From Candidatus Hadarchaeales archaeon (lineage in GTDB: Archaea > Hadarchaeota > Hadarchaeia > Hadarchaeales > WYZ-LMO6), in assembly GCA_038736355.1 (NCBI GenBank), contig JAVYML010000001.1, forward strand, positions 62,001 through 126,000: 64,000 nt of DNA, given 5' to 3'. Within the stretch, counting starts at the first letter, position 1. The number at the start of each line of letters is the position of its first letter. A program made the position numbers and the translations under genes. Of the stretch, positions 27,305 through 64,000 are shown in pieces. The notes beneath the pieces were generated by a model. It had not been told where the DNA came from, searched no databases, and saw nothing but the letters and a program-made list of their open reading frames with translations.

Positions 27305-28216
27305 TCACTTGGTGGAAAGGAGGAGATTCAGGATCCTGGAGGAAACCCTCTCCAAAACCCTCACCTTCTCATTGAGCTTGGAGAGCTCCCTCTTGTACTT
27401 GGTCTCCAACCTCTTCACTTCTCTTTTCTGTTCCTCCCTTAGGGTCTCGAGCTCATCCTTTCTGGAGGCCATCTTCTCATAGTATTCCCTGATCTCCTGG
27501 GCAAGACGTTTCATGGTCTCCAGATCCCCCGTGAGCTTTGCCAGCTCCGCCTTCGTCACCGCCTGCTTCACCACCACATCCATCTGGCTCACCATCTTCT
27601 CCAAGGGCTTCACCGTCTCCTCCAGGGTGGCGAGCTTGAGGGAAAGGTTGGTCACGTCCCTGAAACCACGCTGGAACTCCAGGAAGGCTGCCATCACCTT
27701 ATCCGCCATCACTTCCACTTGATCCTTCAGCTGCTGAATCCTGAGCATGTTCTTCCTGGCCTCATCGGTCATTCCCAGGATGGTTTCCATCCCCTTGAAC
27801 TGGGCCACGGTGGACCTGAACTCCTTCATTTCGTTCATCAGGCTCTTGATCATGTCCTCCAGGGCCACCAGCTTAGTATTCAGCTTCTCTATCTCCGCAT
27901 CCCTCCTCATGATGGCGGCCCTGAACTCCTCGGGTCTTATCCCCTCTATGGCCATGAGGGCTTTCTCTGCCTTCGCCTTCAGTTCGGCGTTGTCCTTGGC
28001 CTGCGTGAGGACCATCGACCTTATCTCCCCAATCTTTTCGCTCAGGGTGGTGAACCTCGCATCGTAAACCTCCCTGAAGCTGGCGAGGGCAGTGACCTGG
28101 GCCTCCAGCTGATCAAGCCTCATCGCGAGGGGAGGTGACTTCTCACCCTTTTCCGCCGGCGGGGGGGCAGGATCTTCCTTTTTCTCCTCCTTCTCCCCTT
28201 TCTTCTTCAACTTCAT
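27305..28216 (-). CDS. Cytosolic coiled-coil protein, second gene of the G1 operon
   Basis: 303 residues; no known family recognised. A Lys/Glu/Pro-rich lead (about 1-30) precedes almost continuous predicted coiled coil (RLDQLEAQVTALASFREVYDA to the end) with heptad-like Leu/Met/Ile spacing. There is no signal peptide or membrane span. It starts three bases after the G1 stop, so it is translationally linked to the G1 ATPase tail. A likely role is a scaffold or adaptor between the G1 cytosolic ATPase domain and the MinD-like ATPase; G1 itself has coiled coils both outside (about residues 6940-7085) and after the ATPase core. Confidence 0.85.
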   Translation of the reverse strand: MKLKKKGEKEEKKEDPAPPPAEKGEKSPPLAMRLDQLEAQVTALASFREVYDARFTTLSEKIGEIRSMVLTQAKDNAELKAKAEKALMAIEGIRPEEFRAAIMRRDAEIEKLNTKLVALEDMIKSLMNEMKEFRSTVAQFKGMETILGMTDEARKNMLRIQQLKDQVEVMADKVMAAFLEFQRGFRDVTNLSLKLATLEETVKPLEKMVSQMDVVVKQAVTKAELAKLTGDLETMKRLAQEIREYYEKMASRKDELETLREEQKREVKRLETKYKRELSKLNEKVRVLERVSSRILNLLLSTK

Positions 28217-28219
28217 CCT

Positions 28220-31200
28220 TCATCCCTTCTTCTTGTTGGAGCCACCATTTTTGCCCCCATTTTTCTTTCTCTTTTCCTCCGCTTTAGCCTTCTCCTCGGG
28301 CTCCTCCGGCTTCTCCCCCTTGGCCTCGGGATGAACCATCTCCTCTTCTTTCTCCTCCTTCAGGGGTTTCCCAGCCTCACCGTGCTTCACTTCCTTCTTC
28401 GGACCCAGGATTTCCTTGTAGGCCTCTATGATCTCCGGTGGCCTCTTCATCATCGCCAGCTGCCTCTCGCGCTCCCTCAGGGCTGCAAGCTGGGCCCTCT
28501 TGATTTCCTCCTCCGGCACCAGCTCGATTACCCTCTTGATGCCCTTGAGCTTGTGCTTGGCACAAAGCTCATCCACCCTGGGCTCCAGGGAATCGAGGTA
28601 GGCATTCACCATGTCGAAGGAAGCCTCCTCCAGCTTGCGCTGGGCCAGGCCAAGCTCGATCCTCAGGTCGAAGACATCCACCCCCTTCTCCTCCAGTTTC
28701 TTCAGCTTGAACTTGATGTTCTCTATCCTGTCGTCGGCGGCGTAGTACTTGTCCAGCTCCTCTGGAGAGAGCCTGAAGGGAGAGTGTAGGATGGGCCTGA
28801 AGTTCACGTAGTACGGTCTGCCGCGGTTGTAGTCTGGGTTCACGACCATCCCGAAGCCTATGGGTGCCCTCGAAACGGATCTCACGTGCTCCTCACCGTA
28901 CTTCATGGCTATGCGCTGGAGCTCTCCCTCCTCCCTCGTCCAGAACTGTATCTGGGTGCGGCAGTTCGTCTGGATGGTTTCGGAGAAGTCGGCTATGGTC
29001 TGGGAAACCAGCATCACCCCTATTCCCCACTTCCTGAATTCCCTGACCGCCCTCTCCAGCTGGATGACACCGGCCCCCGTTCCACCGTACTTCGGGAGAA
29101 GCCTGTGTACTTCGTCGAAGATCAGGAGCACCTTCAGCTCCGGATACTCCCTGGGCTGTGACTCGAAGATGGACTGAATCACGTTGGTCACGAAGATGTC
29201 CATGTCACCGGGCTTGAGCCTCTCTATCACGAACACCGTGATCTTACCCCTGGCCTCCTCACCGAGCAGTTCCTTCATGTCTATCTTCTGCCTCGGATTC
29301 GTGATCAGCTTCACCACACCCGGGAAGCTCCTGGCATCGGCTTCCGTGAGACCGAACTTCGGATAGTGGGAAAGCATGCGCTCGTCCGTGCACTTGCGGA
29401 GGAAGCCCGTCCACTGGGCGGTGGGATCGAAGACGATCACGTTCTTACCCTGCTTCAGGGCCTCTTCCGCTATGACCATGGAGGAGATGGTCTTTCCACC
29501 CCCGGTGGCACCGGCGGTGATGACGTGCATCCTCAGGTCGGAGAGCTTGAGATAGGCATCGCGCTTGGCCTCTGCCAGCGTACCCAATTTGATGGCATCT
29601 GGACCTGGCTTGGGAAGCTCCTCCAGGAAGAGGGTGGCCTCGAACCTGCGCTTGGCACTCCTCCTCTTCTTCACATACCTGTAGGAGAACCTTCCCGCCA
29701 CCCCCATGCCCACCATGCAGAGGAGGAGGAGGGCCAGCATCCACAGGGGCAGGCCCAGGACCCTCAACTCCCTGGGAGGCCTCCTCACCTGCATGAAGCT
29801 CTGATCGGGGGTGAGTTTGAACTCCTTACCGGCCCAAACATACCTCCCGCCCGTCCTTATCAGGTAATCTCCTTCAGGTAGGTTCTCCGGTACCCTGAGT
29901 TCGAAAGTGTGCAGCTTGACCTCTCCCGCCTCCAGCTCCAAGTTCTCCGCTACCTCCGCGACTATCTCTCCGGCCGTGCTCACCAGTTGGACGGAGACGG
30001 AGGAGGAAATGCGCGAATTGCCAAGGTTTTTGACCTCCACCCCCACCCTCAGGGTCTTGCCCGGAGCTATGCTGGGTGGCACCATCTTCAGCTCCGCCCT
30101 GAGGTACTTCCTCACCTCCACGGTATCCGTGGCGCTCACCGAGATCACGTCGCCGTTGAGTCTGTAGTCGGCCCTCGCCCTCACGAGGTAATAGCCTTCC
30201 TCCGCATTTTCGGGTACCATAAGCGTTGTATCCACCGCCAAGGTTTCACCCGCCTCCACCAACCTTGCCTGTCCGGTGGCATCGGGCAATACCACCACTC
30301 CGGCCGAGGTGAGGAGCTCCAGGAAGAGCTGGGTCTCCGAAGCCATCTCCCCCATGTTGACCAGCGTGACCTTCACGGGCAGGAGCCCTCCCGGAGAAAC
30401 CGTCCTCATCATGGGGGTGACCTTCAGGTCGAAGAGACCCCTGGCGCTTGGCAGGACCCTGATGGTGACGGGTACGCTCTTCTCCACGTATGCATCCTTG
30501 ATCACCACTTCTCCCGTGTAGGTCTTGGGTGGGGTCTTCCTCGGAATCTTCACCGAGACCTTGATCTTCCCGCTCTCGCCCGGGTTGAGGGTCAGGAGGG
30601 TGGGACTGAAGGTGAGGAAGCCCTCGTCCTTCACTTCACCCGTCGAGTCCGGCCTGAGGTCCAGCGGGATGAAGGCGTTGTTCTTCACCGTGAGATACAC
30701 GTCCGCCGTCCCCTCCTGGTAGAGCTCCAGGGAGAGGGACTCGGGATCCACCGTGATGGGTTCCCTGGGGGCGACGTTCTCCATCATCAGCCTGAAGGCA
30801 TTCTCCATCAGGGACTGGAGCCTGAGGGCAGACTCGCTCTCCTGCTGCCTGAGGTTCTCTATCCCTTGCCAGACCGTCTGGAAGCCCGACCAGAGGGCAT
30901 TGATCATGTTCTCCATCAGGTTCACCGAGGTGCCCTGCAGGGCGATCAGGTTCTCCAGGATCTGGCTCATGGTCTGGAGCGGGCTCAGCAGGGTGTTCTC
31001 CAGCGTCTTCATGTTCTCTTGCGTGACCAGGCCGGAGACGATGGCTGCCATGTTGTCCACCACGCTCTTCAGGTTCTCGGCCGCGCTGGACATGGTGCCC
31101 GAGGCCTGGGTGAGGGCACTGGTGGCCTGCTCCATCTGGGAGATGGTGTTCTCCAGCCTGAGCACCTGGGTGGCGAAGGGATCGTACTCCGCAAGCACGT

Positions 31201-40200: not shown

Positions 40201-43200
40201 CGTATATCCAGCCGCTCTCCCTCACCACCTGGGTGAACTGGTTGTCCGTCGCCACCCAGACGTAGAACATCACGGGCCTGGAAACATCCCAGACGTTCTC
40301 CCAGCTCAGGAAGGGTGTGTTATCAGAGGTGTTCTCCCCGCTCGGTGGTGTGTAGAGGACGGGCGGGGCCGGGGGCTGGGTCTCGACCCTGAACCACCTC
40401 CTCGGGGTTTCAAAGAGGTTCCCAGCGTTGTCCCTAGCGATGACCCTCCACTCATAGTCGTTGTCCGACAGAGGCGGCGAAACACTCCAATTATTGGCGA
40501 GGATCCAGCCCGAATCCCTGTAGTTCTCCTCCAGTCCCACCCTGTTGATGAGCACCCTGTAGGTGACGGGCAGGGAATTGTCCACGGCGGGATTCCACTC
40601 CAACGGGGGCTGGGCGAGCACATGGGCTCCGTTCTCCGGCCAGATCAAGAAAACGTTCTCGGGTGGCAGCGTGTCAACCCTGAACCAGCGCGTCTGGCTG
40701 TTCTCCCCCACGTTCCCAGCGTTGTCCCTAGTGCAGACCCTCCAGTAGTACACGCCATCCTCCAGCTCCGGTGCGGTCCAAGAAGTTCCCCCAAACCAAC
40801 CCGAGTCCGCAACTATGGAGAGGAAGGAAGCATCGCGGGCCACCCAGATCCTGTAGAGCAAGGGGGGCGACATCTCCGCCCCTCCCGTCTCATCGGTGGT
40901 CACTTCCTCCCAGGTGAAGGAGGGCGTGTTGTCGTTGAGGTTCTCTCCCTGTACGGGTGAGAGCGGAACGGGTGGGGACGGACGCTTGGTGTCTATCCTG
41001 AACCAGATGTCTTCGCAGAAGTTCCCTATGTTACCGGCGTCGTCCTGGGCCTGTACGCACCAGTAATACTCATCATCCGATCTTTGGTCCGGATACTTGC
41101 AATTCTCTTCCTCGACCCAACCACTCGTCCAGAGAACCAGGTGCAGGATGTTCTTGAGTTGCACCCTGTATTTCAGAGGATAGGAGTTCTCGGGAGGTGC
41201 CTGCCAGCGGAAGTTGGGGGAGTTGTCGTTTATCTTTATCCCCACGGGCCACAGGGGCACGGGGGGAGCTGGGGGAAGGGTGTCCACCCTGAAGGCGAAG
41301 ACCATGGAGTTGTCGCTGTAGTTGTAGAACTCGTCCCTGGCGCAGACCCTCCAGTAGTACAGACCGTCCGGCAGGGAGGGGGTGACCGTCCAGAAGTTCT
41401 CGTATATCCAGCCGCTCTCCCTCACCACCTGGGTGAACTGGTTGTCCGTCGCCACCCAGACCTTGTAAACCACGGTGGTGAGGTCGAAGGCATTCTCCCA
41501 ACGGAGCGTGGGGGTGATGTTGTTCAGGTTCTCGAAGTTTTGCGGGGAAACCGGAACCGGGGTGGTTGGGCGGGAAGTGTCTATGGTCATCTTCCGGTTC
41601 TCGGACCAGGGACCGATGTTCCCCGCGTTGTCCCTTGCGCAGACCCTCCAGTACCAGATTCCGTCGGGTATGGGGAAGCTCTCCCAGCTGGTCGCCTCCA
41701 TCCATCCCGAGGTGTAATTCTCATGACCGAAACCTGGATCGTCGGAGATGGAAACACGGTAGGTGAGGGGCAGGGAATCCTCCACGCTCCCATCCACTTC
41801 ATTCTCAACCGGCTCCCATTCGAAGTTGACGGTGTTATCGTTCGTCTTTACCTCATGGGGAGGAAGGATGAGGACGGGGGCGGCTGGTGGCGTGAGGTCG
41901 ATCACCAGCCTCCTGTTTTCAGACCAAGATCCCTCGTTCCCCGCATTATCCCTTGCCTTGACCCTCCAGTACCAGGCACCTTCGGTGAGAGTTGCGGTCC
42001 AGCTCGTGTTCTCGATCCAGCCCGAACCCAGATTTTCATAAGAGAAGCTTGGAGTGTCGCTGATGGAAACGTAGTAGAGTACTGGTCTGGAGTTCTCCTC
42101 CACGGCATTCCAGGAAAGCTGCACCTCGGTCCTGTTCTCTTTGTGGTTGTCGGGTGGGGAAGAGAGAATCGGCTCAGCGGGTGGGAGGGTGTCCACCCTG
42201 AAGTACCATATGGCGCTCGCATCGCTGGAGTTCCCGGCGTTGTCGACCGCGTAGACCTTCCAGTAGTACCTTCCGTCGGGCAGGGGTGGGACGATTTCCC
42301 ACTGGGTGTTCTCACCACTCCCGTAGTCGTAGAGGATGGCGTTCCTTACCTGGTCCAGCGTTATGGCGTCGTATACGAGAACGTAGTAGGCCACCGGATA
42401 AGAGTTCTCTTCCACAGGTTCCCAATCGAGTAAGGGTGTGTTGTCGTTGAGGTTCTCATTGTTCTTGGGGGAGACGAGTACGGGTGGGAGGGGCTGGGTT
42501 ATGTCGACGGACACGCTCCAGATGGCAGACCATTCCGACCAGGCACCGGGGAACGGGCCCGCGCCGTCGCTGTCCCTGTACTGTTTCACCCTCCAGTAGT
42601 AGGTACCGGTCCCGGGCAGCTCGTAGGTGTAACTTTTACTGGCAGTGGTCGTGTCGAGGAGGAAAGGTTCCGCAAAGGTGTTCTCATAGTCTATCTGGAG
42701 GTTGTAGTAATCGGCCGGCAAAACGTTGTCCCAAGAGAAATTGACCACCCTATCCGCTTGTCCGGACTTGTCGGGAGGTAAGAGCAGCCTTGGGGATGGA
42801 ACGGGGGCCGAAACCGTGTCCAGCCATCCCTCCAGCGCATACCATTCTACCCTGGTCGGGAAAACACAACTCCAGACTTCCAGCACAAGCCAGCTAACGG
42901 GGGCGTCGACCCGCGAGGTCCATTCCTCCATTCCGTACCAGACCGCCGGGGCTGCGGTCCAGGCTGCCCAGACCTCCAGCGGATGCCAGACCACGGGGAC
43001 TGAAGAGACGGTGGGGGTCCAGGAGTCCAAAGAAAGCCAGTGAGCGGGGGCGTATGTGTGTCCAGTCCACTCCTCCAGGCTCATCCATCCCATCAACTGG
43101 GTCGGGACACCAAGGGTCCATCCCTCGAGGACACGCCAGGTACCCGCGTAGAAGTTGCGGACCTGGGACCAAGGCCCCTCCCATCCCACGGCGTCGATGG

Positions 43201-46200
43201 CGCAGACCCTCCAGAAGTACAGGCCGAAGGTGGGAAGGATGACCGTATGGGAGTTCTCGGTGACGAAGGAGTTTTCGTAAACGGTGATGGAGAAGTCGGG
43301 AGTGGTCGAGACCTGGATCCTGTACCTAGCCACTCCCGAACCCGGACTCGGGTCCGAGCCCGTGTACCACCTGAGGATGGGAGACAGGTTGTCGGTGAAG
43401 CAGGAATTGTTCTCCGGCAGGTAAAGTTGGACCTGGTTGGGCGGGGTCCTGTCCACCCCGAAGGTGGCTAGGTCAGACCACGGCCCCGCGTTCCCTGCGT
43501 TGTCCACCGCCCGTACCCTCCAAGTGTAGTAGTCCTCCGTGATGATGGGTGGATCCACCACCCAGTTCTCATTCTCGTCGCCGGTCACCCAGAGGTCCCT
43601 CGTGGAACCGTATGCCGCCCCTGAGATCTGAATCTGGATGTGGTACCTGAGGGGGAGGGAATTCTCCTGGACGGGGAGGTACCAGCGGAGGTTGGGGGCC
43701 CCGTTGGTCCAGACTCCTCCCGTCGGGTAGTCGAGGATGGGGGCGGGCGGGGGAACGGTGTCCAGCCTGAAGGAGCTGACCGACCAGGCCCCGACGTTTC
43801 CCGCGTTATCCCAGGCCCTCACCCTCCAGTAATAGACGTTGTCCGGCAGGATGATGGGGACTTCCCTGTAATCCTCCGTGAACCCGTTGTCGCTCCAGAT
43901 CACCTGGTCGAAGTTGACATCTGTGGCAACCTGAACCTCATAGGTGACGGGAGTGGCTTCCTCCGGGGTTCCGTCCACCTCCGTGGTCACGGGCTCCCAG
44001 TCGAGGAGGGGCGTGGAATCGTTCAGGTTCTCCCCGTTCCTAGGAGCCAGGAGGATCGGGGCCGCGGGGGCCTGGGTATCAACCCTGAAGGTCCAGATCT
44101 CCGACCATGGACCGGTGGCACCCGTTCTCTTCTGTCTCACCCTCCAGTAGTAGAGGCCATCCGGGAAGGATGTGAGGAAGGTCTTGTTCGGGGAGACGAG
44201 CCCATAGGCGGGTCTGTATACCTCGGACCAGTCGTTGTCGTTGTCGACCTCCAGGTCAAAGGTGTCTGCGGGCTGCACGTTCTCCCAGCTGAAGGTTGGG
44301 GAGGCATTGGGGGTGTTGATGCCGTTGGGTGGGGTCAGCAAACGGGGCGCCGGAACGGGGGCATCCACGGTTCCCGTCCAGCTCTCCATCCCGTACCATC
44401 CGGCCGGGGCAACTACCACCGTCGACCAGCTCTCCACCGCGCCCCACCGCGCCGGGGAAGGAACAACCGCGGTCCAGGAGTCCAATGAACACCAGATCAC
44501 GGGAACGGAGGAAACGGTTCCTGTCCAGGAGTCCAGGGAGTACCAGAAGAGGGGGACGGAGGAGACCGTGGAGGTCAAACTGTCCAGCGGGTACCAGATC
44601 ACGGGAACGGAGGAAACGGTTCCTGTCCAACCCTCGATCATGCGCCAGCTGGCTGGAGCGCTAAAGAGGAGGGCCCATCCCTCGACCTCCCTCCAGCTCA
44701 CGGGAACCGAGCTCACCGTGACCCACCACCCCTCCACTTCCTGCCACACCACCGGCACGGAGCCCAAGGAAGCACTCCATCCCTCCAGCGTCCTCCATGT
44801 GGCCGTTCTCACGCTTCTGACCTCGGACCAGGGACCCTCGTTCCCAGCCTTGTCCACTGCCTTGACGCGCCAGTAGTAGGTCCCCAGGGCTGGGAAGATG
44901 TACTGGTAGTCGTTGTCGGGGTAGGGCTGGTTCTCGTCCACTAGGAGGGAAGTGAAGGAGGGATCGGTGGCTATCTGGATCCAGTAGTTCTCCGTTCCCG
45001 AGGGTGTGTCCACGGCGGTCTGCCAAACGAATACCACCACCGTACCGTTTTCGAAGGCCTGCTGGTTTTCGGGGGAGGAGAGCTGGACCTGCGGGGGTGG
45101 GGTGGCATCCACCCTGAAGCCCACCGCGGAACAGAAGGCGCTGGGGTTCCCGGCGTTGTCTATGGCCCTTATGCGCCAGTAGTAGTAACCCTGCGTTAGC
45201 GGTGGGACCGTCCAGTTCTCCCCGTAGAGCTGGTTCTCCTGGACCACGATGGTGAAGTCGCTCCAGTTCTCGGTCGCGATTTGGACATGATATCTCACGG
45301 GACGTGAGTTGTCCTCCACCGCCTGCCAGGTAAGGTTGGGGGTGGTCCTCGTCCAGGCGTCGTCCCTGGGCCAGACGGGAACGGGGACGGGGGGAGGCGT
45401 GGTGTCGATGCGGAAGACCACTTCCGTGTTGTCGCCCACGTTCCCCGCGTTGTCCCTGGCCCTCACCCTCACGCGGTAGAGATTGTCGGGGAGGGAGGGG
45501 AGGGTGTACTGGTTCTCGGGAATCCAGGCGGAGACGTGCTCGGGGGAGGAGAAGTCGGGATCGTTGTCCACGATCACCTGGTAAAGCAGGGGGAGAGAGT
45601 ACTCGGGCGAACCGTCGTACTGCTTGGTCACATTTTCCCACCTTATGGTGGGGGTGCTCGTTCCCAGGTTCTCCCCCTGCAGGGGGGAGAGCACCACGGG
45701 GGAGGCCGGCCTGGTCAGATCCACGCGGAACTGCCAAGTCTCGGAGTTCTCGGAGTCCACCCCGCTCCTCGTCATGCGGACGCGCCAGTAGTACAGACCA
45801 TCCGCCAGCTCCAGCAGGTCCTCGGCAGGGTTGTAGTTGGGAACGGTCTTGGGCTTGCTCACGCAGGGGGAGCTGAAGTCGGGATCGTTGTCCACCCAGA
45901 TCCAGAAGGAGTCGGCTGGCTGGAGGTTCTCCCAGGTGAGGGTGGGCTGGCGTGTATTGAGGTTCCTGCCGTTCTCGGGGGAGAGAAGCCGCGGGGCGGG
46001 AACGGGGGCGGAAGCAGTGGCCTGCCATTTCTCCAAGATGCGCCACTCCACCGTGGTGTAGGCCCCCGCCGTCCAGGCCTCTAGCTCCCTCCATCCCGTG
46101 ATGGGGGCCCCCGAAGAGGTAATCCATCCCTCGAGGACGAACCAGCACCTGAGGATGAGGGAGCGGGTCTCTGACCAGGGACCCTCGTTCCCCACCGCGT

Positions 46201-52632: not shown

Positions 52633-53028
52633 TTGGAAATCCTGAAGGATCATCCCATCAAGCTCGAGATAGGAGGGGAGGAATGGGAAACCCTGGATGA
52701 GAAAAAGGCCTCGGAGGTCAGCGAGGCCCTCGCGGACCCCATCAGGAGGTGGATCTACCAAGAACTGGGGAAGGGTTCCCTCAGGCAGGCGGAGCTGGCC
52801 AAGAAGGCCAGCCAGGCCCTCGGCAAGAAGATCACGAACGTGCTCATCCGCTACCACCTGAACAAGCTCGCCTCGGCCGGGCTCGTGAGGTTCGAGAAGG
52901 ACGAATCCCGCCCCAGGGTGAAGATGGTGCACAGGTGTTGCGAGGTGAGGATCCAGGTGAGACCCTTCTCCCCGCCCTCCGCGGGGCTGGAGGAGGTGCT
53001 CGCTGAGACCCTGAGGAGGAGAGGCTGA
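52633..53028 (+). CDS. ArsR-like winged-helix protein paired with ParA
   Basis: 131 residues from a TTG start. The winged helix spans about residues 25-95: EALADPIRRWIYQELGKGSLRQAELAKKA, then TNVLIRYHLNKLASAGLVRFEKDE. There is no CxC metal motif, so it is unlikely to be a metal sensor. The C-terminal part carries a CC pair (HRCCEVRIQVRP). It overlaps parA by one base (TGATG), so the two form a regulator-ATPase pair like par operons. It is on the opposite strand from G1, about 610 bases from its start. Confidence 0.8.
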   Translation: MEILKDHPIKLEIGGEEWETLDEKKASEVSEALADPIRRWIYQELGKGSLRQAELAKKASQALGKKITNVLIRYHLNKLASAGLVRFEKDESRPRVKMVHRCCEVRIQVRPFSPPSAGLEEVLAETLRRRG

Positions 53029-53834
53029 TGCCCATCCTCTCGGTGATGGGAACCAAAGGAGGGGTGGGGAAGAGCACCGTGGCCATGGGGATCTCTGCCT
53101 GGCTCAGCAAGCTCCAGAAGGACATGGTCCTGCTGGTGGATGGGGACACCCACGTGAGGACGGTGGAACTGAAGATGTGTCCCGGGGCGGACGTGACCCT
53201 CTCCCAGGTGCTGGAGGGGAAGCACTCCCTAGCGGATGCCATCTACTCCTGCGCCCTCAAGGCGGGGGGAAGGCCCCTCTTCCCCAAACTGGCCATCCTC
53301 CCCGCCGGGGGAAGGTTCCTCCCTCCCGGGAGCAGGGACATCGTGGGCTTCGTGGAGCACACGGTGGGGAGGTTCGAGCGCATGCTCTCCACCCTCAGGA
53401 AGAGGTTTTCCTACATCATCGTGGATACACCCGCCTCCGTGGGGTTCGAGCACCTCATCCTAACCGCCATAGCCGACGCCCTCCTCTTCGTGGTGAACCC
53501 AGACCTGGATTCCATCCTCTCCTCGAAGATGACGGCGGAGGGGCTGAAGGGACTCCTGGGCCTACAGGCGGTAGGGGTGGTGGTGAACAGGGCACCACGA
53601 GGAAGCTCGGTGGAGGAGTGGGTCCTCCAGGCGGGGGAAATAGCTCCCGTCCTTGGGGTGATAGAGGACGACGAGCTCGTGGAGGACGCCTTCAGGAGGG
53701 ACTTACCCGTGGTGGCCCTTTATCCGGAGGCACCCTCCAGCCAGGCTTTGAAGAAAATCGCTGAGGAGATCCTGAAGCTGAGGATCGAGCCCACCAGGCT
53801 CCTCCCCAAGCTGGAGCTGGCGAGGGGCTCGTAG
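53028..53834 (+). CDS. ParA/MinD-family ATPase
   Basis: 268 residues. The deviant Walker A starts at the N-terminus (LSVMGTKGGVGKSTVAMGI), the A' box is LLVDGDTHVRTVEL, and Walker B is YIIVDTPASVGFEH. It is more distant from the two MinD-like proteins at 15476 and 26453 than these are from each other and carries an inserted segment with two Cys (KMCPGAD and YSCALKAGG). Coupling to an HTH gene is typical of partition or regulatory ParA systems. The third ParA/MinD gene within 38 kb, it may serve the giant proteins or an unrelated positioning task. Confidence 0.85.
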   Translation: MPILSVMGTKGGVGKSTVAMGISAWLSKLQKDMVLLVDGDTHVRTVELKMCPGADVTLSQVLEGKHSLADAIYSCALKAGGRPLFPKLAILPAGGRFLPPGSRDIVGFVEHTVGRFERMLSTLRKRFSYIIVDTPASVGFEHLILTAIADALLFVVNPDLDSILSSKMTAEGLKGLLGLQAVGVVVNRAPRGSSVEEWVLQAGEIAPVLGVIEDDELVEDAFRRDLPVVALYPEAPSSQALKKIAEEILKLRIEPTRLLPKLELARGS

Positions 53835-54968: not shown

Positions 54969-55085
54969 ATGAAAAGGGAAGACTTCAAATACGTCATAGC
55001 GGAATGGCTTCAGCAGGGGATCCCGGAGGTCAAGGGAAGGGAAATCCTCCTGCCCTTGCACGGTCGTAACGGGGTTCTGAACTAA
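54969..55085 (+). pseudogene. N-terminal fragment of a DUF4143-type AAA ATPase, cut by the IS607 element
   Basis: MKREDFKYVIAEWLQQGIPE followed by a short stretch (VKGREILLPLHGRN) and a stop matches the usual N-terminus of archaeal AAA_14/DUF4143 ATPases, just before the Walker A loop. The homology then stops at about 55070, and the rest of the protein resumes at about 56905. The promoter and start are intact. Confidence 0.75.
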
Positions 55086-56293
55086 GTATGGACACGTATG
55101 GAGTCCACACCTAGTCCTTGGGCCTCACCGCCCTTGCCCCCCTCCGGGTTCATTGGGGGACTCATCAAGCTCGGCCCCTTTCGGGGGGAACCCGTGACTC
55201 CCCACATCCTAAGGAATTCCCTCCAGATGTTCCTCGCCGCATTCCCCTGCCTGTCAACCACGAGTCCGCACCTGGGGCACCTGAACTCGCCCGCCCCCCT
55301 CAGGTCTTTATTGTAGAACCCGCATCCGGAGCAGGTCCTGGAGGTGCCCCGAGCCTTCACAAAAATGGTGGCGTACCCGTTCCAGGCAGACTTGTACTCC
55401 ACGTACCTCTGCAGCTTGAGGTAGTCGTGCTTGGAGTTCTGCCTGTTCACGTTCCTGCTCTTCGTCCTGGCCACCCTCTCCTTGAAGTTCCTCAGGTCCT
55501 CGAAAACGTTGGTCCTTCCCGACAGCCGCTTGGCGAGCTTGTGCAGCGCGTCTTCAACCCTGTTCCTCTCCCTCGAGCGGTACTTCCCCAGGAGCCTCCT
55601 CCTGGTTTTATCGGGGAGCTTTTGGATCACCCTCCTCTTCAGCTCGTAGGTCCTGTGGATGGTATAAATTTCCTTCAGGTCCAGGGAGCAGTCGTTCTGC
55701 CCGTCGAAACCGTCCAGGGAAAGGAGATTTGTATCCCAGGCGACCGGGTTCTCTATCTTCAGCTCCGCTTTCTTCCTGACCGTCACTATGAGCTTATCCT
55801 GCTTGAGTATAAGTTCCCCGAGCTCCAATCCCCTTATCCTCTCCCAGCACCAGGCCTTCCTCAGGTCCAGGGTTACGCTCTCCCCATGCGGCCTCACCGA
55901 GATCCTGAGGACCCCGTTCCTGTAACTGTAGAGGGTCTCCTTGATCCTGACGAACCTCCTCTTCAGTTCGGGTTTCTCCCTTCCTGCCCTCCCCCGCAGG
56001 TACCTCTTCCTCCAGGACTTCAGGATGGAGTAGGCCTGCTTTATGGCCGAGTCCACATAGTGCTTTGAATAGGCCCATCCGGCGAGGTGCCTGTCCCTCA
56101 GCCCCTTCCTGAAAGCCCTGTCCTTCTTCAGGAACGGGATCAGCCTCTTTCCCCTCCTCTCCCAAACCATGCTCCCCCACAACTCGTCAAGGATGGCATT
56201 CAAGATCCGCATGTAGTCCTCTATGAGCCCGCCCACCTCGAGCTCGTGCGGTATCGAGTATGCCTTAACCAACAAGTTTCCTGACACCCTCAA
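55082..56293 (-). CDS. tnpB: TnpB, RNA-guided RuvC-type nuclease of an IS607 element
   Basis: 403 residues. RuvC-I is [15 protein letters not shown] (about 183-197), RuvC-II is [14 protein letters not shown] with the catalytic Glu, and RuvC-III is [15 protein letters not shown] with the catalytic Asp. The zinc finger is CSGCGF...CPRCG (about 322-345). The N-terminal part is basic and helical as in TnpB. All three acidic residues are present, so activity is possible. TnpB uses a right-end omega RNA overlapping its 3' end, here towards 55082, which would be the place to look. It overlaps the tnpA end by 29 bases. The C-terminal tail beyond the zinc finger (about 50 residues) is Gly/Pro-rich. 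Confidence 0.9.
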
Positions 56294-56905: not shown

Positions 56906-57993
56906 GAAACTGCTGAAGGGGCAAGGCCAGTCCCGATGAAATCCTCTACCTCGACTTCGAACATGCCAGGTTAAAAGGGGTAACGGCGGCCGACCTGGAC
57001 GAAATGCTGGTAGGCTTCTACGAGCTCACGGGCAAAAGACCCAAGTACCTCTTCCTCGACGAAATCCAGGGAGTGAGGGACTATGGGGGCTGGTTCAGGA
57101 AGAGGCTCGACGCCAGGGTCTATCTTTCGGGTTCTTCCTCCGCCCTGACCCCCAAGAGGATTGCGGGGGAGCTGAGGGGAAGGTGCGTGAACTACGAAGT
57201 CTATCCGCTTTCCTTCAGGGAATACCTCTCCTTCCTAGGCCACAGCCCTCCAAAGCCCGAGGTCCTCCTCCACAGGGAGGAAAGGGGCAAACTCCTCTCC
57301 CTGCTGAGGGACTACCTCCAGTATGGTGCCTATCCCGCGGTTGCGCTGGAAGGGGACAAGAAGCGCGTGCTGAAGGCCTATTTCGACTCCGTGGTGGTCA
57401 GGGATCTGGGCGGAACACCCCTGGCCGAAACCCTCGCCCTCTACCTCACGGCGAACTATGCCCAACTGACGACCCTGAACAGGATCTACAACTACCTCCG
57501 GTCGCTGGGTTTCCAAGTGGGCAAGGAGAAGACCATGGAGCTCCTGGAGAGGGCGAGGGAGACCTACTTCGCGTTCACGATCGAACAGTTCAGGAAGAGC
57601 GAGAGGGAAAGGAAGATGAACCCCAAAAAGCTCTACATCGTGGATACCGGCTATCCCACCGCGCTGGGGTACGAGTTCTCGGTTTCGAGGGCCATGGAAA
57701 ACGCCGTCTACCTGGAACTCCTGAGGAGGGGGAAGGGGGAGGTGTACTACTGGAAAGAGTACGGGAAGAGCACCGGAGCTGAGGTCGACTTCGTGGTGAG
57801 CAAGAACTTCAGGGCGGAGGAGCTGATTCAGGTAACCTACGGGGAGGAAGAAATCAGGGAAAGGGAGGTAAGGGCTCTGGAAAAGGCAAAGGAGGAACTC
57901 GAACCCAAGAAGCTCAAGATCCTGACATGGGACTACAGAGGGGAAATAGAAGGGATGGAGGCCGTGCCGTTATGGTATTGGTTGCTGACATGA
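56905..57993 (+). pseudogene. C-terminal fragment of the DUF4143-type AAA ATPase
   Basis: From about 56925 the frame reads SPDEILYLDFEHARLKGVT, then YLFLDEIQGVRDYGGWFRKR (Walker B DEIQ), VYLSGSSSAL (sensor) and VYPLSFREYLSFLG. The DUF4143 C-terminal nuclease-like part ends in KSTGAEVDFVVSK. Everything after the Walker A is therefore present and the frame is open for about 330 codons to TGA 57991-57993. Together with 54969-55085 it is one gene interrupted by the IS607 element. The start of the open part at ATG 57004 could give a truncated protein without the P-loop. Confidence 0.82.
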
Positions 57994-58085: not shown

Positions 58086-61000
58086 TCACTCAGTCCTCCC
58101 CATCAGCTTCTTCAGCTTCTCCAGGGTTTCCCTGGTCTCCGGGGCCCTCACCGTCTCTCCTTCCTTCTCGGGCAAGGGCCTGGCCCTTATCCTGATCTCC
58201 AGCTCCTCCGGTCGGACACGGGGCTCCACGGGCCTAATCACCCCTGCAAGCTTGGCAGGGGGCACTGCGGGCGGGGCCCTGCCGGCCCTGAGGAGGGACT
58301 GAAGGGCCTCCTCCGGAGCCGGAATGGGTGAGGGCCTGAGGGGTTTCAGGGTGAGGGGCTTGGCCTCGGGAAGCTCCTCGAAGGCTGGGCGGGCGGGTTC
58401 AAGCTTCCGCAAGGAAACGGCCGGAACCACCCTTTCGGGCAGCTTCAGCCTGGGACGCACCAGGCTGGACAGCGGAACCTTCGGGAGGATGGGGCGGAAG
58501 CGCCAGAGGTAGATGAAGTAGCCTGCCGCCCCCACCGCCATCAGGCTCCCCGCCAGGAGGAGGAGCAGGAGGGGCGGCCAGGAGAAGGGCGGGGGCAGGG
58601 TTGGGGCCTTCCTCCCGTACAGGGCCAGGGCCCTTGGGTAGAAGGTGAGCTCGGTCGAGAACACCAAAGCACCCTCTTCCCTTCCCTCCAGCTTCATGAG
58701 CACCTCCCTCCAGCCCTCACCGTCGAAGGCGAGGAGCTTGAGCCCTCCCTCCTTCACTCCCTTCTCTTCCATCCAGTCCTCCGAGACCTGGAGCTCCACC
58801 CTTGTTCCCTCCACCATCTGGGAGGAGGTGCTGAGGCCCAGCAGGGCCCCTCCGTACGCCCGCTCCAGGGAAGGCCAGAGGGCTCCCCTCACCTCTTCCC
58901 CCTTCACCTCCAGCAAGCCCAGCGAGACCACCCTCTGCTGCTCGCGGAAGACGATTCCTACCTTCCTCACGAACCAGGAGGGCGGGTGGAAGACGAACTC
59001 CACCTCCCCTCCCGGAGGCACGTTCTCCGCCATCTTCCTCAGGGAGGGGGTCAGGGTGAGGAAGCTTCCCACCGCGAAGGAGGAAGAGAGACCCGCCCCG
59101 TTCACCGCCCTCACCCTCCAGAAGTACCTCCCCTCCTTCAGTCCCTCGAGCCTGAAGGAGGGAGTACCCAGCTCCCTCACCGTCACCGGGGAGCCGAAGT
59201 CCGGATCGTTGTCCACCCAGAGCTGATAGGTCACTCCCGAGAGGTCAGAAACGGAAGACCAGTGGAGAGAAGGCTGGGTCGTTCCCACCATCTCACCCTC
59301 CCCTGGCGAGAGGAGGATGGGCACGGGAGGAGGTGTGAGATCAACCCCGCAGGAGGCCTTGGCCCTGAGGGGTGCGGGCTCCGTGAGGTTGTCGTTGTCC
59401 CTGGCCAAGGTATAGAACTCGTAGAATCCTTCCCCTTCTGGGGCGGTGAAGCTCCAGGACCAGGGTTCCCTCTCCGCCACCGCGAACTCCTTCCACTCTC
59501 CCCACACCACGTTGTCCCGGGAGTGCCTGTACCAGAGGGCTACCGACACCACGTATCCGTCGTTGTCCCAGGCGGTGGCGCTCACGGGGAAGGGCACCGT
59601 GTTCCTCCAGTACGGACGGAGCTCCAGCACGGAGGAGAGGGGCGGGAGGAACGGGAGGGCTTTCACCTTCAGGAGGAAGGGAGCGGTGCGCCTCTTCCCC
59701 TCCGCGTCCTCTCCCACCACCGTGAGGGAATAGGAGCCCTCTGGCGTCCCCCTCTCCACGCTGAGGTTGAGGGAGGAAGTGAAGGGAGGCATGCCCTCCC
59801 CGACCGAGAACTCCGCCAGCACCGTGGCGGGCAGGTTCTCCACCCTCAGCTTCACGGGGAGGGCGTAACCTCCGAAGGGCTCCACCCTCACCTGTACGGT
59901 GAGGCTCCCTCCCTCCGTCACCTCTCCCAGGCTCGGGCTGACCGAGAGACTGAAGTCCGCAGGTGGCGGCGGGGGAGGTGGAGGTGGCGGAGGTGGAGGA
60001 GGTGGAGAGGGCGTCTCCAGCCTGCCCTGCCAGCCCTCCAGCGCGAGCCAACCCGCACCGGCCCTAACCCAGGTCTGGAACTTCTCCAGTACCCTCCAGC
60101 CTGCCGGGAATCCAGCCTGCACCGTCCACCCTTCTGCCCTCCTCCACCCAGCCTGCGTGAAGAGGGGCGAACTCCATCCCTCCACCAGTTGCCAGCGTGC
60201 CGCCTCGGTTCCCGCCGAACCAAACCATCCTTCCACCGCGGACCATGAGGCCTCCGCCCAAATCCAGCTCTGCCAGGCTTCCGTCACCTTCCAGAGGCCC
60301 CTGGCCGAAACCCCCTCCTGCCAGCCCTCCAGCACCCTCCAGCCAGGAGGTGTGACCATTCCCTCCACCCACTCCTCCAATCCTTCCCAACCGGCCGCTC
60401 CACCCAGCGTGCCCGACCACCCTTCGAGCGCTGACCAGGCGAAGGGAACCAGGAGCGAGGACCACCAGGAGTCCGAAACCACCCAGCCCGCCACAGTCCA
60501 AGTTCCTCCCAGCCAGCCCTCCAGGCTTTCCCACCCCGCTGCCGTTCCCGTTCCTCCCGTCCAAGAGTCCAGCCCGTACCAGAGCATGGGGGCCCCTACC
60601 GCCGTCTGCCAGCTCTCAAGGGAGAGCCAGGCCTCCCTGAGCGTCACGATGAAGACCCCTGAAAAGTTCTCGTTCCCGGCCCCGTCCACCACCACCCTCC
60701 AGTAGTAAGTTCCGGCGGGAAGGAGGTCCTCGCAGGTGTGGTAATTCTCCGTTATTCCCACCTTGCGGTAGGAGAGGGGTGGGGAGAAGGTGGATTCGTT
60801 GTCCACCTGCAGCTCGTACTTCACCCCCGAAAGATCCGCAACGCTCGTCCAGCGGAAGGTCAGGCCTACTCTTGAAACCGTGCTTTCGTTCTCAGGCTCC
60901 AGCAGGGAGGGGGCAGGTGGAGGAACGGGGTCATAACCGCAGGAGGCGTCCGGGACGGGGGGCGGAGACTCGTGGTTGCCCGAGTTGTCCCAGGCCCTGG

Positions 61001-64000
61001 AGTAGAACTGGTAGTGGCCCGGACCGCTGGGCGGCTCGAAGTAGAAAGTGTAGGGCGGGGAGGTGAGGTAGTCGTAGAGGATCCAGGAGCCCCAGCTCTC
61101 GTTGTCGGGAGACCAGCGGAACCAGAGCTCCACGTTCTCCACGCGCCCGTCGGCATCGGAGGCGGAGGCGGAGAGGGTGATGGGCGCACTCTTCTTCCAG
61201 TAGGGAGAGACCGGCAGGACGGAGGAAACCGGTGGAACGAGCAGGGTGAAGGTGCGGACCTCGGAAACGTTCTCGTTCCCTGCCCCATCCACCGCCACTA
61301 CCCTCCAGTAGTAGTTGTTCTGGGGCAGGACGTTCTCTACCATGTGCTCGTTCTCCACAAGCATCTTCTGGTAAACGGGGGAGGAGAAGGTGGGATCGTC
61401 GTCCACCTGCAGGAGGTAGGTCACCCCGCTAAGGTCGGTGACGCTCGTCCAGCCGAAGGAGGGTCTTCCGGTGGAGTCCACCACCGTTTCCCCGTTCTCA
61501 GGATAGACCAGGGAGGGGGCCTGAACGGTGGGATCGTAGCCGCAAGCCGTGTCGGGGATAGGTGGCGGGGATTCATGGTTGCCGGAGTTGTCCCAGGCCC
61601 TGGAGTAGAACTGGTAGTGGCCCGGACCGCTGGGCGGCTCGAAGTAGAAAGTGTAGGGCGGGGAGGTGAGGTAGTCGTAGAGGATCCAGGAGCCCCAGCT
61701 CTCGTTGTCGGGAGACCAGCGGAACCAGAGCTCCACGTTCTCCACGCGCCCATCGGCGTCGGAGGCGGTGGCGGAGAGGGTGATGGGTGAGGTGCGGTAC
61801 CAGTACTGGGGCAGGGGCTGGAGCTGGGAGACCGGCGGGACGAGCAACCTGAGGAGGAAGGCCCTCGACACGTTTTCGTTACCGGCCCAATCCCTCGCCA
61901 CCACCCTCCACCAATAGTTGTCCTGGGGCAGGACGTTCTCTGTCTCGTGCCAGTTCTCCCTTATTCCCTCCTTCACGTACACCGGGGAGGAGAAGGACGG
62001 GTCGCGGTGGACCTCAAGCCTGTAGGTGACCCTGTCGCTTTCCCCGTCCTGGGAGGTGAACCAGCGGAAGGTGGGCCTTCCATCGGGCTCCTCCAGCAGG
62101 GCCCCGTTCTCCGGATGGACGGGGATGGGTTCGGTGGGAGGCGTCACATCGTACCCGACCGTGAACTGCCAGACCTCCGACCAGGGTGAGTTCTCCCCTC
62201 CCGCCTCAGCCCTGACCTTCCAGTAGTAGGTCCCGTTCTCCAGCTCGGTCACGAAGGTGTACTGGCTGGCCTGAACCACCTCCTCGAATGGGGACCCGAA
62301 GTTCTCGTCCTCGTCCACCCATAGGCGGTAGACCTCCGCACCCTCCACATCCGACCAGTCGAGGGTGGGGGTGTTGTCATTCAGCCAGGCATCGTTCTCG
62401 GGGGAGAGGAGGACGGGCGCACCCAGCGTGATCACCCTGCCCTGCCTGGAGTCCAGGAGGGACCAGCGGGCGGGTGCGGTGCTCCACCCCGTCCACTCCT
62501 CCACCTTCCTCCATCCTCCCACCCCTTCCAGGAGGATCTGCCACCCCTCCAGCTCGCTCCAGCTCGCTCCAGCTCCGACCGAACAGGTCCAGGACTCGAT
62601 TCCGCCCCACCCGGCGGCGGCCTGGAGTATCGCCAGCCAGTCTTCGACCTCCCTCCAGAGCACCGAGGTCGCACAGGTCGCAGTCCAGGAGTCAGCAGTA
62701 GACCAGGAAGCGGAGGTCAGGATTCCCCCTGCCCATCCCTCCACCTCTTCCCACCCAGCTCTGGTCTCCAGGGCATTCATCCATTCCTCCACCGCCCACC
62801 AGCTGGCCCCGGCCTGCACCGTTCCCGTCCAGGAATCGAGCCATGACCAGCTGGCGAGAGCGCTCACCGCTCCCGTCCAAGCCTCGACCTGCCGCCAGCC
62901 GGAGGGAGCCTGGGCCGAGCAGGACCAGTCCTCCACCGGCTGCCAGGAGGCTTGGGCCTGGAGTTCCTCCGTCCAGACCTCCAGCTGGTGCCATCCCACC
63001 GGTGTCTCGAGTCCTCCCGTCCAGCCCTCGACCGGCTGCCAGGAGGCGGGAGCGGTGATCACCTCCGTCCAGGAGTCCGCCGGACACCATCCCGCGGGGG
63101 CGGAGAGGGTTTCTGTCAGGGAGGCGAGAGGCTGCCAGAAGGCGGGGGCGGAGAGGGTTTCTGTCAGGGCCTCCAGCAGGATCCAAGAGGCCGGACCCTG
63201 GAGCATTCCCGTCCAGGAATCCAGCTGGTGCCAGGAAACCCGTGTCTCGAGACCCGAACTCCAGCCCTCCAGGGACTGCCAGGAGACGGGCGCGGAGAGC
63301 GCACCCGTCCAACCCTCTACCGGTTGCCAGCTGGCCGCGGCCCCTATTGCTCCCGTCCAGGAGTCAACCCCCAACCACCAGGCCCGTGCCTCGACCGAGT
63401 CCGTCCAAGAGTCCAGGGAGGACCAGGCGACTGCGGTTTCAGACTCACAAGTCCAGGTCTCCAGATGGGACCACTCGGCCGGGGATGAGAAGATGCCCGT
63501 CCAGCTTTCCGCCTGCCACCATCCGGCAGGAGCTAAAGCCCTTCCCGAAAGGGAGTCGATGGGCTGCCAACCAGCCACCGAGGACGCCGTCCCACTCCAA
63601 GAGTCGAGGAGCTGCCAGAAGACCGGGGAGAAAAGCATGCCCGTCCAAGAGTCTGCCTGCCACCAAGAGGCTTGGGCCAGGATTCCCTCCCACCATGATT
63701 CGGCCTGCACCCAGGAGCTTGGGGCCAGGACCGCGCCCGACCAGCCTTCCACTGGCCGCCAAGTGGCGGGTGCCACGAGGCCACCTATCCAAGACTCTGC
63801 CGGCAACCAGCCAGCCATGGTCTCCACCGCGAGCATCCAGGACTCCAGCCCCTGCCACCAGACCGAGGAGAGGAGGGTCTCCATCCATCCCTCCACTGGC
63901 TGCCAGGTAGCGGGTGCGGAACTCTCCGCGCTCCACTCCTCCATCAGGTGCCAGGTGGCCGGGGCTGGAACGTCCCCCGATAGGGAGTCCAGCGACCTCC
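58086..64000 (-). CDS. Giant surface protein G3, 5' end beyond the window
   Basis: At least 1970 residues; the frame is open through the right edge (GTTCCAGCC... continues the repeat), so the ATG at 63944 is not the start. From the N-terminal side there are about 33 uninterrupted W-repeats, Fn3-like domains (YYWKVRAEAGGENSPWSEV; YQFYSRAWDNSGNHE), 13 more W-repeats, a run of about 15 Pro (near 59960-60010), an Ig-like domain (FSLSVSPSLGEVTEGGSLTV), more Fn3-like domains, and a PGF-pre-PGF-like domain (VELQVSEDWMEEKGV). A TM (WPPLLLLLLAGSLMAVGAAGY, near 58520-58590) leads to a Pro/Arg-rich cytosolic tail of about 140 residues. Architecture matches G2 and the outer part of G1. The tail is not an ATPase. 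Confidence 0.85.
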   Translation of the reverse strand, partial: RSLDSLSGDVPAPATWHLMEEWSAESSAPATWQPVEGWMETLLSSVWWQGLESWMLAVETMAGWLPAESWIGGLVAPATWRPVEGWSGAVLAPSSWVQAESWWEGILAQASWWQADSWTGMLFSPVFWQLLDSWSGTASSVAGWQPIDSLSGRALAPAGWWQAESWTGIFSSPAEWSHLETWTCESETAVAWSSLDSWTDSVEARAWWLGVDSWTGAIGAAASWQPVEGWTGALSAPVSWQSLEGWSSGLETRVSWHQLDSWTGMLQGPASWILLEALTETLSAPAFWQPLASLTETLSAPAGWCPADSWTEVITAPASWQPVEGWTGGLETPVGWHQLEVWTEELQAQASWQPVEDWSCSAQAPSGWRQVEAWTGAVSALASWSWLDSWTGTVQAGASWWAVEEWMNALETRAGWEEVEGWAGGILTSASWSTADSWTATCATSVLWREVEDWLAILQAAAGWGGIESWTCSVGAGASWSELEGWQILLEGVGGWRKVEEWTGWSTAPARWSLLDSRQGRVITLGAPVLLSPENDAWLNDNTPTLDWSDVEGAEVYRLWVDEDENFGSPFEEVVQASQYTFVTELENGTYYWKVRAEAGGENSPWSEVWQFTVGYDVTPPTEPIPVHPENGALLEEPDGRPTFRWFTSQDGESDRVTYRLEVHRDPSFSSPVYVKEGIRENWHETENVLPQDNYWWRVVARDWAGNENVSRAFLLRLLVPPVSQLQPLPQYWYRTSPITLSATASDADGRVENVELWFRWSPDNESWGSWILYDYLTSPPYTFYFEPPSGPGHYQFYSRAWDNSGNHESPPPIPDTACGYDPTVQAPSLVYPENGETVVDSTGRPSFGWTSVTDLSGVTYLLQVDDDPTFSSPVYQKMLVENEHMVENVLPQNNYYWRVVAVDGAGNENVSEVRTFTLLVPPVSSVLPVSPYWKKSAPITLSASASDADGRVENVELWFRWSPDNESWGSWILYDYLTSPPYTFYFEPPSGPGHYQFYSRAWDNSGNHESPPPVPDASCGYDPVPPPAPSLLEPENESTVSRVGLTFRWTSVADLSGVKYELQVDNESTFSPPLSYRKVGITENYHTCEDLLPAGTYYWRVVVDGAGNENFSGVFIVTLREAWLSLESWQTAVGAPMLWYGLDSWTGGTGTAAGWESLEGWLGGTWTVAGWVVSDSWWSSLLVPFAWSALEGWSGTLGGAAGWEGLEEWVEGMVTPPGWRVLEGWQEGVSARGLWKVTEAWQSWIWAEASWSAVEGWFGSAGTEAARWQLVEGWSSPLFTQAGWRRAEGWTVQAGFPAGWRVLEKFQTWVRAGAGWLALEGWQGRLETPSPPPPPPPPPPPPPPPADFSLSVSPSLGEVTEGGSLTVQVRVEPFGGYALPVKLRVENLPATVLAEFSVGEGMPPFTSSLNLSVERGTPEGSYSLTVVGEDAEGKRRTAPFLLKVKALPFLPPLSSVLELRPYWRNTVPFPVSATAWDNDGYVVSVALWYRHSRDNVVWGEWKEFAVAEREPWSWSFTAPEGEGFYEFYTLARDNDNLTEPAPLRAKASCGVDLTPPPVPILLSPGEGEMVGTTQPSLHWSSVSDLSGVTYQLWVDNDPDFGSPVTVRELGTPSFRLEGLKEGRYFWRVRAVNGAGLSSSFAVGSFLTLTPSLRKMAENVPPGGEVEFVFHPPSWFVRKVGIVFREQQRVVSLGLLEVKGEEVRGALWPSLERAYGGALLGLSTSSQMVEGTRVELQVSEDWMEEKGVKEGGLKLLAFDGEGWREVLMKLEGREEGALVFSTELTFYPRALALYGRKAPTLPPPFSWPPLLLLLLAGSLMAVGAAGYFIYLWRFRPILPKVPLSSLVRPRLKLPERVVPAVSLRKLEPARPAFEELPEAKPLTLKPLRPSPIPAPEEALQSLLRAGRAPPAVPPAKLAGVIRPVEPRVRPEELEIRIRARPLPEKEGETVRAPETRETLEKLKKLMGRTE
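60010..60630 (-). repeat. W-repeat block of G3 (13 units)
   Basis: Thirteen tandem units, all but one of 16 residues, such as WYGLDSWTGGTGTAAG, WESLEGWLGGTWTVAG and WSALEGWSGTLGGAAG, ending at the poly-Pro linker. Confidence 0.88.
60984..61180 (-). repeat. Near-identical internal duplication of G3, copy A
   Basis: About 195 bases that match 61587-61783 almost perfectly at an offset of 603 bases. It encodes RVENVELWFRWSPDNESWGS and the following GPGHYQFYSRAWDNSGN segment. Confidence 0.85.
61587..61783 (-). repeat. Near-identical internal duplication of G3, copy B
   Basis: Second copy of the 60984-61180 segment. The related domain in G2 (near 24580-24790) has the same protein pattern, NVELWFRYSPDNSSWSSW, but is more divergent. 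Confidence 0.85.
62425..64000 (-). repeat. Largest W-repeat array: about 33 units of 16 residues in G3
   Basis: Uninterrupted array at a strict 48-base period, cut by the window edge. Examples: WQPVEGWTGALSAPVS, WQSLEGWSSGLETRVS, WHQLDSWTGMLQGPAS, WREVEDWLAILQAAAG. Consensus: W1, hydrophobic 4, E/D5, S/G/E6, W7, T/S8, hydrophobic 11, A/S13, P/A14, A/V15, S/G16. Confidence 0.92.

Follow-up and report, generated by a model that had tools for sequence, protein, structure and literature searches.

A 16-residue tryptophan repeat in giant predicted surface proteins of Hadarchaeota, mostly encoded near MinD-like ATPase genes

We describe a repeat found in a 64,000-nucleotide stretch of the genome of a Candidatus Hadarchaeales archaeon (assembly GCA_038736355.1, contig JAVYML010000001.1, positions 62,001 to 126,000), here termed the window. 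Three giant minus-strand genes, at 16224–25673, at 28220–52024 and from 58086 out past the window end, carry arrays of a 16-residue unit with the core W-x-x-h-[ED]-x-W, where h is hydrophobic; we call it the Trp (tryptophan) repeat. A 16-position profile finds 203 units in the three proteins, divided as 47, 19 and 137 (about 46 of the latter inside the window), while shuffled versions of all three yield a mean of 1.75 units and never more than 6. The strict motif W-x3-[ED]-x-W tells the same, with 41, 20 and 117 occurrences in the real proteins and means of 1.95, 1.7 and 3.5 in the shuffled ones. A preliminary description of this DNA had counted 19, 49 and 46 units in genes G1, G2 and G3, in agreement with our 19, 47 and approximately 46, if G1 is the 28220–52024 gene and G2 the 16224–25673 gene.

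The phase of the repeat is most evident in the array at 62418–64193 (minus strand; 62418–64000 within the window, with 193 bases beyond it), the fourth of the 58086 gene. Its 37 units follow each other at exactly 16 residues. Reading by phase alone, without profile selection, Trp occupies position 1 in 37/37 units and position 7 in 32/37, an acidic residue occupies position 5 in 36/37 and a hydrophobic residue position 4 in 37/37. The near-invariance of both Trp and of the acid, and a long array free of phase slips, had been claimed before and hold here, with 17- and 18-residue units occurring in other arrays. Over all arrays analysed the unit spacing is 16 residues in 436 cases, 17 in 86, 18 in 13 and 15 in 5. 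The 99 longer units (17–18 residues) retain h4, E5, W7 and h11 at 85–100%, so that their extra residues can be placed after position 11. Profile information is greatest at W1, E/D5, W7 and hydrophobic 4; the earlier statement that other positions vary freely was too strong, as there are weaker preferences for G at 9, V/L at 11, A/T/S at 13, P at 14 and A/V at 15.

Arrays hold from 2 to 38 units with no preferred number, and so open-ended a range speaks against closed rings or barrels. Units of the same window array are approximately 24–39% identical to one another and, one block excepted, adjacent units are barely more similar than distant ones. Some arrays of relatives are nearly identical internally (mean pair identity 0.96 in L041 and 0.90 in L063), and units in other genomes approach WQLIETWTGTVEAPAx or WNLIESWTGTVRAPTx.

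The 58086 gene is an open frame of 5638 amino acids that begins at 75002, outside the window, and ends at 58086. It has five arrays, with 27, 22, 38 and 13 units besides the 37-unit one; the 13-unit array is the fifth (60003–60629) and has a single 17-residue spacing before passing into a poly-proline tract. The C-terminal part within the window (58086–64000) bears Ig/Fn3-like domains, a PGF-pre-PGF-like domain, a predicted single C-terminal transmembrane (TM) segment at 58512–58568 (19-residue mean hydropathy 2.1) and a cytosolic tail. Near the N-terminus of this protein, residues ∼480–1340 read as five tandem beta-sandwich-like domains of approximately 165 residues each, a candidate distal binding part.

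The 16224–25673 protein (3149 amino acids) has a signal peptide-like N-terminus, a TM segment at ∼16647–16703, a basic tail, and its 47 units in five blocks: two units directly behind the signal peptide (25440–25535), 9 at 23835–24272, 23 in its largest array (21522–22676), 5 at 20124–20369 and 8 diverged ones at 17187–17627. The 28220–52024 protein (7934 amino acids) has many Ig/Fn3-like domains and only 19 units, at 45998–46144 (3 units), 44351–44797 (9) and 42797–43138 (7). Its single TM segment (∼29705–29761) precedes a predicted cytosolic ATPase domain of the HerA/TraG pumping type (∼28940–29593), so that ectodomain and ATPase share one chain. This domain scores above cut-offs (HerA_C, 39.1 bits against 22; DUF87, 37.6 bits against 23.2). 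We rejected the fusion as a part of the repeat system: relatives of the domain occur in only 3 of 28 Hadarchaeota genomes, this one included, and one of them lies in a 2588-residue frame without Trp units.

By hydropathy, all three giants combine a hydrophobic N-terminal segment with a single C-terminal TM segment and a cytosolic tail. The same layout is found in the two homologues for which both ends are present (L081 and L085); homologues cut at contig ends show one end only, and L087 has no segment above the hydropathy threshold. The proteins thus look like secreted surface proteins with a C-terminal membrane anchor. The domains flanking the arrays match Big_13, Big_7, fn3, Ig_Rha78A_N, Ig_J and related Pfam models; the PGF-pre-PGF-like stretch matches TIGR04213 below its cut-off (E 4e-5 and 1.1e-3). 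At most a few residues separate the start of an array from the last strand of an Fn3-type domain (WFRVCR, then WEVLEGW), the entry joint named in the preliminary description, and most arrays end in an A-P-V-P-A-P-type linker leading into the next domain. That description also placed the blocks always between beta-sandwich domains; this is mostly so, except for the two units behind the signal peptide of the 16224–25673 protein and the poly-proline exit from the last array of the 58086 protein.

These joints bear on a different view of the unit, as a beta-hairpin or an edge strand that stems from the final (G) strand of an Fn3 domain plus its linker, with the array forming a string or antiparallel meander that extends the Fn3 edge, not a solenoid. 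Besides the direct start off the Fn3 strand and the usual A-P-x-P linker at the end, it draws on scores of unit positions 5–15 outside the arrays: 8 of the 20 top windows are Fn3 last strands (EVWTFRVDT type), compared with 4.9% of all windows (binomial 2e-6, for domains that are not independent). An 11-position resemblance is a lead and not a homology test, and the Trp–Trp spacing is 6 in the unit but 4 in the PWSEVW of the Fn3 strand. The sequences suggest that the unit may have grown out of an Fn3 last strand and linker, while the non-solenoid architecture is in our opinion rather unlikely, both structure models discussed below resembling parallel solenoids (with the artefact caveat given there).

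Selection was assessed with the 16224–25673 gene, which has an ortholog in a genome of the same genus (76% identity over 1695 amino acids; 79% in the flanks and 62% in the repeats). The ratio of nonsynonymous to synonymous substitution rates (dN/dS) is ∼0.24 in the flanks (1481 codons; bootstrap 0.20–0.28). In the repeats, where it is taken from 13 ortholog unit pairs, it is ∼0.11 at positions 1, 4, 5 and 7 (52 codons) and 0.43 at the remaining positions (156 codons; bootstrap 0.28–0.63). Since the motif value lies below that of the flanks and the other positions above it, we conclude from the codon comparison that the Trp motif is selected at the protein level, with the other repeat positions relaxed, not diversifying. 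The regularity of the repeat, noted in the preliminary description, reflects such selection. Position 3 is identical in only 6/51 aligned unit pairs, a set that includes poorly orthologous pairs from arrays of unequal size.

Another reading takes the arrays as low-complexity filler, expanded by slippage and tolerated as unstructured linker. Array lengths do vary between close relatives (in the other congener, the array that aligns with the 23-unit block is 8 units long), and the near-identical arrays noted above would fit slippage. Filler is nevertheless very improbable given window units that are only about 30% identical yet hold phase and motif, purifying selection that is stronger at motif positions than in the flanking domains, and a composition rich in Trp, Val and Leu, which is not disorder-like.

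The arrays might instead be sticky, with exposed W-x-E-x-W ladders binding polysaccharide, mineral or hydrophobic surfaces and length giving avidity. In an extended strand W1, E/D5 and W7 have the same parity and could share one face, aromatic–acid–aromatic faces are usual in carbohydrate binding, and adhesins and tapirins figure among the closest solved folds. The relaxation of non-motif positions between orthologs makes this improbable, and the Trp residues could equally form a core. The pattern of constraint fits a scaffold and not a specific ligand surface.

To map the taxonomic distribution we searched one genome per species (84,980 species) with an exact-codon pattern spanning three successive units. 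Of 54 stretches returned, the 31 with at least three profile units are all archaeal; the other 23 are bacterial and have 0–1 unit each. Twenty-seven of the 31 are from genomes named Hadesarchaea or Hadarchaeum, one (L026) is assigned by its match pattern to a genome of the window's own genus and three are from a single archaeal metagenome-assembled genome (MAG). The repeat occurs in 17 of 28 Hadarchaeota genomes, and in 8 of the 11 with a completeness of 90% or more. Hadarchaea are uncultured archaea of the deep biosphere. A viral origin was rejected: 10 viral contigs fit a loose pattern and have no profile units, and a stricter pattern matched none.

The MAG with three stretches (G028, archaeon Bin_28_2_1; contigs L117, L118 and L120) belongs to another archaeal group. 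Its origin was checked with one gene of L117, beside the array. This gene is 82% identical to its Hadarchaeum counterpart, which shares a contig with a Trp-repeat gene and a MinD gene; to those in the 13 well-matching of 14 MAG relatives searched it is only 32–40% identical. Misbinning is for this reason likelier than spread beyond Hadarchaeota, which we rejected, and the three contigs are probably Hadarchaeal. The scan thus presents the repeat as specific to Hadarchaeota.

The repeat had not been recognised as a named family in the preliminary description, and no Pfam, NCBIfam or PDB-sequence match that we found stands up. No Pfam-A match covers the repeat in the window proteins. DUF3499 (best E 1.5e-8, matched by 13 of the 20 array members) and GalKase_gal_bdg (E 6.4e-7) were rejected: for neither does any stretch pass alone, and in four members examined singly the matches cover only ∼30 of the 119 model positions and ∼12 of the 49, the scores being sums of repeated chance pieces. 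The ice-nucleation repeat PF00818 is not among the 16 Pfam families that the 20 array members match at E ≤ 10. NCBIfam gives only OmpL47-type, PGF-pre-PGF and two weak models, whose best stretches lie outside the arrays. Against PDB sequences the best match of an array profile has E 0.17, and the similarity to toxin-type glucan-binding repeats was rejected as not significant. By these sequence criteria the Trp repeat is real, under selection, lineage-specific and without a name.

Literature searches on tryptophan in Hadesarchaea, surface proteins of Hadarchaeota, Trp-rich archaeal repeats and giant archaeal Fn3 tandem-repeat surface proteins found no description of it, and a search on Hadarchaeota adhesins and S-layers had no Hadarchaeota paper among the eight matches listed. 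In the main text of a report on a hexadecane-degrading Hadarchaeon enrichment (PMC10811742), the words filament, adhes-, biofilm, attach and cell wall do not appear.

The preliminary description had suggested beta-hairpins or solenoid coils with stacked Trp. We modeled two arrays with AlphaFold2 (AF2). Fourteen near-perfect units of a Hadarchaeal relative, without an alignment, give an all-beta model with pLDDT 89.2 and pTM 0.74. The diverged array of the window was modeled with an alignment of 20 non-overlapping rows (sliding 10-unit windows, whose overlapping rows MAFFT staggered over 320 columns, were dropped); this model too is beta, with two strands per unit in its better part. Disorder throughout is seen in neither. 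Foldseek places beta-solenoids nearest to both. Among the solved folds in the VIA lists, VIA-align pairs the near-perfect model with EtpA (8vbb_A) at Z 15.7 and 2.6 Å rmsd over 218 residues, and reaches Z 14–15 with left-handed hexapeptide enzymes only at rmsd >10 Å; solenoids are again nearest to the window-array model, without significance. EtpA-type solenoids are right-handed. The models make beta structure likely, a parallel beta-solenoid the leading guess and stacked Trp no more than a possibility.

Each giant gene of the window has a MinD/ParA-like ATPase gene beyond its 3' end. The gene at 15476–16270 (plus strand; TIGR01969 E 1e-53, 182.1 bits) is tail-to-tail with the 16224–25673 gene and overlaps its end. 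That at 26453–27232 (minus strand; E 1.4e-45, 155.4 bits) lies downstream of the 28220–52024 gene on the same strand, and a third, farther off, at 53028–53834 (plus strand; E 6.8e-33, 113.9 bits) is convergent with the 58086 gene, 4.3 kb past its end. TIGR01969 (minD_arch) is the best match of all three, and all three fall below its cut-off of 201.75 bits; we class them as superfamily members with the KGGVGK motif and not as members of the curated subfamily.

Between the 28220–52024 gene and its MinD-like gene is a predicted coiled-coil-like protein (27305–28216, minus strand) with no curated family above cut-off; relatives of it occur in the loci L090 and L089, in the latter next to the second HerA-fused protein. 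A TnpB/Cas12f1-like gene (55082–56293, minus strand) and an AAA_14/DUF4143 ATPase gene (57004–57993, plus strand), perhaps mobile-element insertions, separate the 58086 giant from the 53028–53834 gene.

The neighbourhood recurs in other genomes. We considered 19 Trp-repeat genes from 12 genomes, each present up to its stop codon and followed by 1.5 kb or more of sequence; duplicates, frames truncated at a contig end and frames with a shorter downstream stretch were excluded. For 15 of these 19 a MinD/ParA-like gene lies within 5 kb downstream (for 14 within ∼1.3 kb), compared with a chance expectation of ∼0.6 (∼3% per random point), although the genes are related by descent and not independent, which makes a binomial value indicative only.

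From these observations we propose that the Trp repeat is a Hadarchaeota-specific, beta-rich, open-ended repeat forming stiff rods in giant surface fibres that are positioned by the neighbouring MinD-like ATPase, a reading that we hold to be evenly poised between right and wrong. The arrays would be stiff, length-adjustable rods spacing the Ig/Fn3-like beads, and their length would set that of the fibre. Each 16-residue unit may form a single coil of a parallel beta-solenoid, and W1, h4, E5 and W7 would be the structural signature of the coil; what follows position 11 would be a turn with room for one or two extra residues. Targets would probably be bound by distal beta-sandwich domains and not by the Trp arrays. 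The MinD-like ATPase may have the cytosolic tail or one of its partners as cargo, and would place or cluster the fibres on the cell by analogy with the MinD homologues of Haloferax volcanii. A stronger version, which we put forward only tentatively and think somewhat more probably wrong than right, is a new aromatic class of beta-solenoid with two stacked Trp and one acid per coil, making rods tens of nanometres long, with a dedicated MinD/ParA-like ATPase, encoded alongside, to lay out each fibre system. Our literature searches on Hadarchaeota and archaeal surface repeats found no description of such a positioned-fibre system.

Several observations weigh against this proposal. For the solenoid, both AF2 models are of that class, but the model of the window array has pLDDT of only 63.9 and pTM 0.47, and Foldseek gives no match at E ≤ 0.001 for either. 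A published study reports that AF2, given perfect repeats, returns beta-solenoids that are confident but unrealistic, some of them with stacked acids, and raises the possibility that the bias is of importance for near-perfect repeats only (PMC11795689); by that account the input of our confident model, a near-perfect repeat without alignment, is the documented artefact case. Covariation of adjacent units shows nothing beyond noise in 256 position pairs at three scales in 284 diverged units; the largest lag-1 value is z 3.7 (volume, positions 3–3) and the best parallel diagonal is within noise. The conserved acid at position 5 would be awkward if stacked in a core.

As to the ATPase, its link to the tail is proposed from gene neighbourhood, and for 4 of the 19 genes no MinD-like gene was seen, among them L056, which is probably part of a longer gene broken by a frameshift. 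Members of this MinD subfamily are also encoded next to proteins with a TM segment and basic tail but no Trp units detected in the stretches examined (L134, L135 and L128). The partnership is consequently with the class of surface protein and not with the repeat, and suggests a wider MinD-linked surface-protein system in Hadarchaeota.

With this, a repeat family that has no name is defined; it is a marker of surface proteins in an uncultured phylum of archaea and is tied by its gene neighbourhood to MinD-like ATPases. A Trp-ladder solenoid, if true, would amount to a simple protein rod of programmable length; should the fold prove different, the diverged natural arrays still offer a fair test set for predictors that over-call beta-solenoids.

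Among known repeats, those of the CW_binding type, which bind cell wall, choline or glucan and include the repetitive domain of large clostridial toxins, are likewise short with Trp and acidic residues, and provided the best, non-significant PDB matches; they have a period of about 20, and the Hadarchaeal arrays have no Pfam match to them. Ice-nucleation proteins (PF00818) have long arrays of 16-residue units with a different consensus, and share only this period with the Trp repeat. The parallel beta-solenoid adhesins (EtpA 8vbb, HMW1 and HxuA of two-partner secretion; tapirins) similarly have beta coils in elongated surface proteins, if our models are correct. EtpA is 6% identical, with no sequence relation, and the model compared with it is itself suspect; to our knowledge a strict 16-residue Trp/acid/Trp unit does not occur in such adhesins.

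The host proteins are of the same class as archaeal surface proteins with Fn3/Ig-like domains and PGF-pre-PGF (TIGR04213), having Ig/Fn3-like beads and a single C-terminal TM segment, and differ in their giant size, in the MinD-like neighbour and in a Trp repeat that no scanned model covers. For the ATPases the nearest comparison is with MinD2 and MinD4 of H. volcanii, which influence the placement of archaella and chemosensory arrays (PMC11588486). The Hadarchaeal neighbours match the same family best, with scores below its cut-off, and their cargo would be a giant surface protein instead of archaella.

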